Assembly (NCBI RefSeq): GCF_002214505.1
Contig: NZ_CP015103.1
Location: 496,001 to 560,000 of the forward strand
Length of the DNA: 64,000 nt
Reading direction: 5' to 3'
Source of the DNA: Thermococcus siculi
Lineage (GTDB): Archaea > Methanobacteriota_B > Thermococci > Thermococcales > Thermococcaceae
Below the pieces are notes generated by a model. The model was not told the origin of the DNA. It saw nothing but the letters and a program-made list of their open reading frames with translations, and made no database searches. Shown piece by piece: positions 41,470 through 62,530 of the stretch (positions within the stretch are counted from its first letter, which is position 1; every line of letters starts with the position of its first letter). Made by a program: the position numbers and the translations under genes.

Positions 41470-41697
41470 TCAGTCGAGGTAGCCGAGGGCGCGAAGCCTC
41501 TCCTTGACCTTCTCTTCCTCCTCTTCGCTGAAGACTTCCTCCTTCTCCTCCTCTTCGAGGCTCGCCAGAACCTCGCGGAGGACGTAGGTCACGTAGTCGG
41601 AAACTGAAGTGAAGCCGGTGCCCTCTATCCTGGCCTTTATCTTGTCGTAGAGGGGCTTCGGTATGGAAACGGTCGTGTACTTCTTCTCCTCAGCCAT
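41470..41697 (-). CDS. ribbon-helix-helix regulator at the head of the sulfate operon
   Basis: A 75-residue protein with the ribbon-helix-helix pattern YTTVSIPKPLYDKIKARIEG, a Gly-Phe turn, SVSDYVTYVLREVLASLEEE, and a long acidic C-terminal tail. The first residues of the beta ribbon (TTVSIP) and second helix (SVSDYVTYVLRE) are typical of CopG/MetJ-like DNA-binding dimers. ATG 41697 lies after GGAGGTGTTTGAG. Its upstream region carries three phased repeats (41715-41744), a likely operator, so autoregulation together with control of sat is inferred. Confidence 0.85.
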   Translation of the reverse strand: MAEEKKYTTVSIPKPLYDKIKARIEGTGFTSVSDYVTYVLREVLASLEEEEKEEVFSEEEEEKVKERLRALGYLD

Positions 41698-41714
41698 CTC
41701 AAACACCTCCGAAC

Positions 41715-41833: not shown

Positions 41834-41854
41834 TCCCCGCGAGAAGTTTAGAAC

Positions 41855-41910
41855 GCGATGATGAGTGATGGGCGAACCGATGGATGAGGAAGGAAAGGTG
41901 ATCTCTGAGC
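41855..41910 (+). ncRNA. C/D box guide sRNA candidate 1
   Basis: C box GATGATGA (41857-41864) and D box CTGA (41905-41908), 50-odd bases apart as in archaeal C/D sRNAs, with internal C'-like TGGATGA (41881-41887) and a degenerate D'-like CCGA (41877-41880). The D' guide gtgatgggcgaa would pair with TTCGCCCAT(T)..., a sequence I recall from the archaeal 23S A-loop region. It has its own TATA box and lies in an intergenic gap. The degenerate D' box keeps confidence moderate. Confidence 0.55.
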
Positions 41911-41914
41911 AACC

Positions 41915-41923
41915 CTTTTAAAG
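41915..41923 (+). promoter_or_regulatory. TATA box of C/D sRNA 2
   Basis: CTTTTAAAG, 30 bases before the C box at 41945, which predicts a transcript start close to 41943. Confidence 0.55.
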
Positions 41924-41942
41924 CCCATCCCCAACCTTTTCT

Positions 41943-41998
41943 GGGATGATGACTTCAGCCTTGCCTGAGGCTCGTGATGATGGAGTGACGGACTGACC
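41943..41998 (+). ncRNA. C/D box guide sRNA 2, predicted to target 16S rRNA twice
   Basis: All four boxes are canonical: C GATGATGA (41945-41952), D' CTGA (41965-41968), C' GTGATGA (41974-41980), D CTGA (41993-41996). Both guides are exactly 12 bases. The D' guide cttcagccttgc pairs with GCAAGGCTGAA and the D guide tggagtgacgga with CCGTCACTCCA, both recalled from archaeal 16S rRNA. By the box-plus-five rule the predicted 2'-O-methylation sites are G902 and U1406 (E. coli numbering). Own TATA box upstream and T-rich tract (about 42003-42010) downstream. Confidence 0.85.
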
Positions 41999-42092
41999 GC
42001 GTCCTTATTTTTATGTGCCCTAATAGGTGGTTTCAATAAGATCGGAAACGTAGAATCTTTCGAACACCCTCTCGCCGTACAGGGGTGATATA

Positions 42093-54850: not shown

Positions 54851-56314
54851 TTATTCCAGGGCCTCCACGGCTTTCCTCCAATTCCCCTGCTTCCTGAACT
54901 CCCTCTCCGTGTAGAGGCCCTCCTTCTTCAGTATCCCCCTCGCAGCCAGAATTCCGGTGGCGGCGGCGTTAACGATGTCCCTGCTCAGCCCTGCGCCGTC
55001 TCCGGCGGCGAAGATTCCCTCTATGCTCGTCTCAAGGTTCTCATTGACCTCAGCGCGCATGGCGTAGTACTTTATCTCCGGCGCGTAGAGCAGGGTGTGA
55101 TCGCTGGCAACGCCCGGGAGGACCCTGTCGAGCTTCTCAAGGCCCTCTATGATGTTGGTAACGACGCGGTGCGGCAGGGCCATGGCTATGTCTCCCGGAG
55201 TAACGTGCCTGAGCGTCGGCTCGACGTCGCTCCTCCTTATCCTCGTCCACGTGCTCCTCCTTCCGCGCCTCAGATCCCCGAGCCTCTGGATTATCGGCTT
55301 CCCGCCTCCTATCGTCGTCGCCAGCTGGGCTATGCTCCTCCCGTAGGCGGTTGTGTCCTCAACCGGCTCGGGCAGTTCAATTCTGCTCAAAAAGGCGAAG
55401 TTGGTGTTGTTGCTTTTTCTCTCGTGCATCGAGTGGCCGTTAACGCCAACGTAGCCGTCGTAGCGCTCCTCAACGACGAAGCCGTTCGGGTTGGTGCAGA
55501 AGGTTCTCACGAAGTCGTCGTAGGTGTCGGTGTAGATGTGGAACTTGGGGTCGTGGTTTATGCTAGTTATCGGCTCCATAACTATGGCCGGAACCTCAAC
55601 GCGAACGCCCACGTCAATCGGCCCGTGCCTGGCCCTCAGGCCTATTCTCTGGGCCACGTCGTGGAACCAGTCGGCACCTCCGCGGCCGGGCGCGACGACG
55701 ATGTACCTAGCCTCAACCTCAAAAACGCTCGTCCCCTTCCTGACCCTGACCCAGCCCTTCCCGAATTCAAGGGCCTTTGTCCAGAGGAGGAACTCGACGC
55801 CCCTGCTTTCGAGGTGGCGCTTTATGTCTCCAATAACCCCCGGCGTTCTATCGGAGCCTATGTGCCTCTGGATTATCGGGATGAACTTGACGCCGGCCTG
55901 CGCCGCCCTCTGCTCCCAGTACCGAACCTGTTCCGGGTCGCCCCTGAAGAGGTTCCTCGGAGACTTGTGCCTCAGGAAAATCCGGTCAACCTCCCAGACG
56001 AGCTGCCAGGCGTAGTTCTCGTCTCCGGTTAGCTCGCTCAGGTCGCCCCCTATGTCCGGGCGGAGGTTTATCGTGCCGTCGCTCAATCCACCGGCACCGC
56101 CGACGCCGCTCATTATGTGGCAGGGTTGGCAGCCGATGCAGTAGCCGAGTTCGTACATCGGGCAGGTTCTCTGCTCAACGTCTCCCCCTTCGTCGATCAC
56201 CAGAACCCTAAAATCGCTTTTTTCGGCGAGTTCGTAGGCCGCGAAGAGGCCCGCCGGGCCGGCTCCGATAATCACAACGTCGTAGCCCTTTCCGCTTCCT
56301 TCCTCAGAAACCAT
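54851..56314 (-). CDS. COG2509-type FAD-dependent dehydrogenase
   Basis: A 487-residue flavoprotein. The FAD Rossmann motif VVIIGAGPAGLFAAYELAEK (14-33), CPMYELGYCIGCQPCHIMSG with several Cys close to the active site, and the second FAD contact GIFAAGDGAGLSRDIVNAAA near the C-terminus are visible. COG2509 proteins are uncharacterised; the Cys cluster suggests thiol or sulfur redox chemistry. ATG 56314 has AAGGGAAAT upstream. Divergent from the CBS/antiporter operon. Confidence 0.88.
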   Translation of the reverse strand: MVSEEGSGKGYDVVIIGAGPAGLFAAYELAEKSDFRVLVIDEGGDVEQRTCPMYELGYCIGCQPCHIMSGVGGAGGLSDGTINLRPDIGGDLSELTGDENYAWQLVWEVDRIFLRHKSPRNLFRGDPEQVRYWEQRAAQAGVKFIPIIQRHIGSDRTPGVIGDIKRHLESRGVEFLLWTKALEFGKGWVRVRKGTSVFEVEARYIVVAPGRGGADWFHDVAQRIGLRARHGPIDVGVRVEVPAIVMEPITSINHDPKFHIYTDTYDDFVRTFCTNPNGFVVEERYDGYVGVNGHSMHERKSNNTNFAFLSRIELPEPVEDTTAYGRSIAQLATTIGGGKPIIQRLGDLRRGRRSTWTRIRRSDVEPTLRHVTPGDIAMALPHRVVTNIIEGLEKLDRVLPGVASDHTLLYAPEIKYYAMRAEVNENLETSIEGIFAAGDGAGLSRDIVNAAATGILAARGILKKEGLYTEREFRKQGNWRKAVEALE

Positions 56315-56397
56315 ATTTCCCTTGCCAACTTCTATGGCTCCACCCTTAAAAAGTTTTTGGCAAATTTTTGGTTAAATTCCTTGCATTATTGGGGCAA

Positions 56398-56419
56398 TAT
56401 TGACTTAAAAACGTCAATA
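56398..56419. promoter_or_regulatory. inverted repeat TATTGAC-N8-GTCAATA
   Basis: A perfect 7-base inverted repeat in the AT-rich gap between the COG2509 gene and the CBS/antiporter operon, upstream of the TATA-like CCTTTAAAC. It may be an operator for either gene. Confidence 0.5.
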
Positions 56420-56473
56420 ACCTTCCCGAAACCTTTAAACATGTATGCACGTTAGTGTTTATTCGTGGGGTTT

Positions 56474-57028
56474 ATGGAGGAGGCCAAATCTGAGAAGGCC
56501 AAGGCCGCCAAGGCCAAGAAGATACACATAATTCACAGCAAGAGAAAGCTTCTCCAGCTCCAGAGAAAGGAGGAGATGAGCCACAACATCCGCTACATCT
56601 CCAAGGTACCCGTCAGGATAGTCATGGACACGGACTTCCTCACCCTCCACCCGGATGATTCCCTCTCAAAGCTCGTTCAGAATCTCAGGGGTGAGGAGAG
56701 TTCCGCCGTCGTCGTCGACGAGGAGGGAAAACTTCTGGGCTTCATAACGATGAAGGATCTGCTCCACTTCTTCGAACCCCCGAGGAGGTACTCGATAGTC
56801 GGCATAGGTCTCCTGAGGAAGTATTCTGTGAACAGGACGTCCAGGATAGAGGACATAATGGTCAAGAAGCCTGTGACTATAGGCATCGACGACAACCTGG
56901 GAAGGGCCATAAAGATCATGCTCGAAACCGGAAAGCACCACCTTCCGGTCGTCGATGATGAGAACCGGGTTCATGGACTCCTTGAGATTAAGGACATAAT
57001 AAGGCTCATTCGCATAGTCTCCGCTTAG
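56474..57028 (+). CDS. tandem CBS domain protein preceding two antiporters
   Basis: A 184-residue protein with a Lys/Ala-rich N-terminal helix (about 1-40) and two CBS motifs: FLTLHPDDSLSKLVQNLRG ... GFITMKDLLHFF, then KKPVTIGIDDNLGRAIKIML ... LLEIKDIIRLIR. CBS pairs bind adenine nucleotides and gate transporters. ATG 56474 is preferred over GTG 56465. It is immediately followed by two CPA2 antiporter genes, so regulation of cation/proton exchange by nucleotide is a reasonable inference. Confidence 0.9.
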   Translation: MEEAKSEKAKAAKAKKIHIIHSKRKLLQLQRKEEMSHNIRYISKVPVRIVMDTDFLTLHPDDSLSKLVQNLRGEESSAVVVDEEGKLLGFITMKDLLHFFEPPRRYSIVGIGLLRKYSVNRTSRIEDIMVKKPVTIGIDDNLGRAIKIMLETGKHHLPVVDDENRVHGLLEIKDIIRLIRIVSA

Positions 57029-62476: not shown

Positions 62477-62530
62477 GGGATGATGAGTCTGGAGCCCCCT
62501 GATCGGTGAAGAGGTTTCGCGGGGCTGACC
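62477..62530 (+). ncRNA. C/D box guide sRNA 3, ending just before a gene
   Basis: C GATGATGA (62479-62486), D' CTGA (62499-62502), C'-like GTGAAGA (62506-62512), D CTGA (62525-62528). Both guides are 12 bases: gtctggagcccc and ggtttcgcgggg. I could not assign targets from memory. A TATA-like GCTTATGAAG lies about 25 bases before the C box. The RNA runs to within 6 bases of the ATG at 62534. Confidence 0.75.

Follow-up and report, generated by a model that had tools for sequence, protein, structure and literature searches.

The sR60 gene and its surroundings

The window, by which we mean the whole stretch of 64,000 nucleotides of the Thermococcus siculi genome that was analysed, carries a C/D box sRNA gene at 41942-41998 of the forward strand. 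In a cmscan search against Rfam this segment matched the family RF01309 (sR60) with 64.8 bits and an E-value of 1.3e-13; the match spans the full model, positions 1-55, and its score exceeds the gathering score of that family, which is 50 bits. The locus is sR60, an archaeal C/D box sRNA of a family that had already been catalogued, and in that respect it is real but ordinary. Hyperthermophiles of the Thermococcus/Pyrococcus group would be expected to employ it in the methylation of two particular rRNA bases in the vicinity of the decoding site. The features at the locus are the following.

41854-41910, forward strand: C/D box sRNA sR1 (RF01152), upstream of sR60; cmscan, 54.2 bits
41916-41922, forward strand: TATA-like element TTTTAAA (RNA UUUUAAA), 30 nt upstream of box C
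41942-41998, forward strand: C/D box sRNA sR60 (RF01309), located by cmscan
41942-41944, forward strand: 5' arm of the terminal stem, UGG; 3 bp with CCG at 41997-41999
41946-41952, forward strand: box C, AUGAUGA; identical in 56 of 79 copies
41953-41964, forward strand: D' guide CUUCAGCCUUGC; 11 bp (41954-41964) with 16S GCAAGGCUGAA, predicted site G902
41965-41968, forward strand: box D', CUGA; CUGA in 57 and CCGA in 22 of 79 copies
41969-41973, forward strand: D'-C' spacer GGCUC, 5 nt; 5 nt in 25 copies, 3 nt in 54
41974-41980, forward strand: box C', GUGAUGA; from the sequence and the aligned copies
41981-41992, forward strand: D guide UGGAGUGACGGA; 11 bp (41981-41991) with 16S CCGUCACUCCA, predicted site U1406
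41993-41996, forward strand: box D, CUGA; the same in 78 of 79 copies
42005-42012, forward strand: T-rich run, a possible terminator, from the sequence

The original prediction, read from the raw sequence, had placed a C/D box sRNA at 41943-41998 of the same strand and had called its C, D', C' and D boxes all perfect. The Rfam match and the family-wide conservation described below back the former claim, and all four boxes were indeed found intact at 41946-41996 (+). They follow each other in the order of an archaeal C/D box sRNA, C (RUGAUGA), D' (CUGA), C' and D (CUGA), with guides in the range of about 9-14 nt, and the layout is AUGAUGA-12 nt-CUGA-5 nt-GUGAUGA-12 nt-CUGA. When both strands of the 64 kb were scanned, the strict C-D'-C'-D pattern occurred only here (41946-41996 +), and it was absent from all 200 random windows generated with an order-1 Markov model. 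The T. siculi gene shares the boxes, both guides, the terminal stem and the full length with the RF01309 model, but has a D'-C' spacer of 5 nt rather than 3, i.e. two extra nucleotides, as in 25 of the 79 copies that were compared.

Elsewhere in the window a third C/D box sRNA, sR23 (RF01138), lies at 62478-62530 (+) with a cmscan score of 75.2 bits; its D guide pairs best with 16S over 9 bp, which would place the site at G360. A 78-aa ORF on the reverse strand (41470-41706), flanked by the ATP sulfurylase gene and sR1, has no Pfam match and by eye resembles a small regulator of the ribbon-helix-helix type.

Guide targets in the 16S rRNA

T. siculi has a genome of 2.03 Mb in a single contig, with one gene each for the 16S and the 23S rRNA. 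The complementarity of the guides was computed against the strain's own 16S gene (55281-56768 of the genome contig), and sites are numbered according to E. coli K-12 rrnB. The D' guide forms 11 contiguous Watson-Crick pairs with GCAAGGCUGAA, which puts its N+5 position opposite G851 of the strain's own 16S (E. coli G902); the D guide forms 11 contiguous Watson-Crick pairs with CCGUCACUCCA, with N+5 opposite U1357 (E. coli U1406). Both guides are thus complementary to rRNA with a paired N+5 position, as expected of a C/D box sRNA. The 11-base duplexes and the sites 902 and 1406 that had been predicted from archaeal 16S sequence hold in the organism itself, and the alignment that had been proposed as a check gave 11 Watson-Crick pairs for each guide.

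Two such matches had been considered unlikely to arise by chance, and a shuffling control agrees with this: when the letters of a guide were permuted, keeping its composition, and scored across the N+5 site in 16S and 23S, at least 11 pairs were reached in only 0.6% (D') and 0.2% (D) of the shuffles. The best rRNA match of either guide is its 16S site. The runner-up of the D' guide is a 9-bp match at 16S position 1018, and that of the D guide a match of 10 bp, two of them G-U pairs, in the 23S rRNA. The 23S rRNA was rejected as the main target, since its matches are weaker than those to 16S for both guides.

Conservation in the Thermococcaceae

sR60 was present in all 81 Thermococcaceae genomes studied, which cover six genera, scoring above the Rfam cut-off in 80 of them, and in none of the 14 control genomes. 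Seventy-nine copies could be aligned, and in every one of them the D' core reads UUCAGCC and the D guide GGAGUGACGG. This constancy is partly by construction, since the alignment was itself built with both strings; however, only a single fetched locus failed at this step. The spacers and flanks do vary among the 79 copies while the guide cores stay constant, and in some relatives the D' duplex is down to about 8-9 bp. Of the 81 genomes, 60 gave a hit to the exact 16S target string of one guide and 59 to that of the other; those without a hit are all assemblies split into some 20 contigs or more. In other families of the class, 21 genomes were searched for the exact D guide followed by box D and none had it, and therefore the D guide appears to be restricted to the Thermococcaceae.

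In C/D box sRNAs a short stem at the ends of the RNA closes the kink-turn of boxes C and D; that of sR60 is 3 bp long and covaries over the 79 copies. Its inner two pairs are canonical in every copy and the third pair in 72. The inner pairs are G-C in 59 copies, C-G in 16 and A-U in 4, the two arms changing together (CGG/CCG, CCC/GGG, AAA/UUU). Judged from these alignments, a covarying stem combined with constant guides provides strong evidence of a functional RNA.

It is therefore hardly conceivable that the boxes and the complementarity to rRNA arose by chance in intergenic sequence. The standalone fold of sR60 is no more stable than that of shuffled sequences (z = -0.07), which is normal for C/D sRNAs, and a chance origin is refuted by the family-wide conservation, the shuffled guides, the random windows without a perfect array and the covariation of the stem. 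We also looked at an ORF of 62 codons on the opposite strand (41848-42036), which covers both sR1 and sR60 and could make the sRNA match a by-product of a protein-coding gene. This ORF has no Pfam match, and the conservation tracks boxes and guides, with 2-nt length changes among relatives, rather than codons; the protein-coding reading is thus extremely improbable and was rejected.

Promoter elements and transcription

Of 78 copies of sR60, 71 have a TATA-like match upstream, in most cases between -29 and -34, and the element at 41916-41922 is likely to be the gene's own promoter. Downstream, a run of at least four T residues within 40 nt was seen in 45 of 79 copies. In one genus (g2, probably Pyrococcus) seven of the nine sR60 copies are without a TATA-like element and lie close behind sR1, which suggests that sR1 and sR60 may be co-transcribed there as one transcript. 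Dozens of C/D sRNAs are expressed in T. kodakarensis according to its transcriptomes, and many of these are circular (PMC4247193; PMC9014305).

Tandem arrangement with sR1

sR1 belongs to the same class of RNAs as sR60 and is its upstream tandem neighbour. On the same strand and at a distance of at most 60 nt it precedes sR60 in 59 of 80 genomes, with five more having it within 2 kb; the exceptions to the tandem are two genera (g4 and g6). Its D' guide and the D guide of sR60 share a target region in helix 44 but not the site: that of sR1 forms 12 bp, including one G-U pair, with 16S positions 1400-1411 (E. coli), and addresses C1402 instead of U1406. The two targets share 9 nt (E. coli 1403-1411). 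The G-U pair, opposite G1405, was present in all 66 copies seen, in a search that also allowed the fully paired form. It is the family, RF01309, and this upstream partner aiming at the overlapping site C1402 that go beyond the original prediction.

The D guide of sR1, AGGUGAUC (41896-41903, forward strand), is complementary over 8 Watson-Crick pairs to GAUCACCU at the 3' terminus of the 16S rRNA, overlapping the anti-Shine-Dalgarno sequence. By inspection the candidate site is around C1533 (E. coli numbering); a duplex of 8 bp could by itself be due to chance.

Proposed function of sR60

What was established here by computation is the gene with its boxes and guides, the covarying stem, the conservation, the matches of both guides to this strain's 16S sequence and the presence of the protein genes. 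In the genome the fibrillarin and Nop5 genes are adjacent and two L7Ae-family genes are present as well, so that all three proteins of a C/D RNP (fibrillarin, Nop5 and L7Ae) are encoded. From the established mechanism of the class, we infer that sR60 would be transcribed in this strain, assembled into an RNP and used for methylation at both sites. The RNA would fold into a terminal kink-turn of box C and box D, closed by the 3-bp stem, and an internal C'/D' motif, on which L7Ae, Nop5 and fibrillarin would assemble. Each guide would then pair with the 16S rRNA, and fibrillarin would methylate the ribose opposite the fifth guide nucleotide upstream of box D' or D, at G902 in helix 27 through the D' guide and at U1406 in helix 44 through the D guide. 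We consider it highly probable (about 0.92) that sR60 is a dual-guide C/D box sRNA that directs 2'-O-methylation of G902 and U1406 in the 16S rRNA.

The nearest structural data are from the P. abyssi 30S subunit, solved by cryo-EM at 3.2 Å with nucleoside identities checked by LC-HRMS (PMC7005279). For its 16S rRNA the ribose methylations listed comprise Am373, ac4Cm250 and, at the equivalent of E. coli 1402, Cm1376; position 1380 (E. coli 1406) is not among them, nor is a Gm at any position (PMC7005279). Cm1376 fits the D' site of sR1. Since the model includes only modifications visible in the density (PMC7005279), the lack of the 1406 equivalent and of Gm constitutes weak negative evidence, and in view of this listing the methylation of G902 and U1406 by sR60 stays a prediction, drawn from the guides. 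Papers on the S. solfataricus and S. acidocaldarius ribosomes had nothing on the sites 902 and 1406, and in the open-access literature no paper on sR60 by name was found.

The P. abyssi list could also be read as a sign that sR60 is real but acts mainly as a chaperone of rRNA folding, either by holding the strands of helix 27 and helix 44 together or by keeping the 1400 region open, and that methylation is slight or absent at one of its sites or at both. About 500 nt of sequence separate the targets of the two guides, 9 nt of the D target also belong to the target of the sR1 D' guide, and a possible role in rRNA folding has been put forward for dual guides whose targets lie far apart (Dennis et al. 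2015, PMC4644070). However, the boxes and the N+5 geometry are fully canonical, the N+5 base pair is kept at both guides, and the silence of the P. abyssi structure counts for little; we regard this explanation as improbable. A related idea is that the guides of sR1 and sR60 compete for the overlapping 16S sequence, the two RNPs acting in turn on the decoding-site strand, and that the D guide of sR60 may serve more as an exchange factor or chaperone than as a methylation guide. It would account for the presence of Cm1402 and the lack of Um1406 in the P. abyssi 30S model; we give this idea a small chance of being correct.

Under the preferred reading, in which sR60 guides methylation at both sites, it may be compared with the C/D guides that have been predicted for helix 44 in other archaea and that also address its decoding part (Dennis et al. 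2015, PMC4644070). Their sites differ, being E. coli A1408 in S. acidocaldarius and N. equitans and G1494 in M. maripaludis; the set comprised seven archaea, none of them Thermococcales, and its helix 44 predictions are sparse (PMC4644070).

A reading of the raw sequence made without tools thus picked out a true guide RNA together with the right targets. Scientifically, the T. siculi gene adds another member to a family already catalogued. U1406 is a base of the decoding site, and the constant D guide of sR60 predicts that its ribose is methylated in the Thermococcales.
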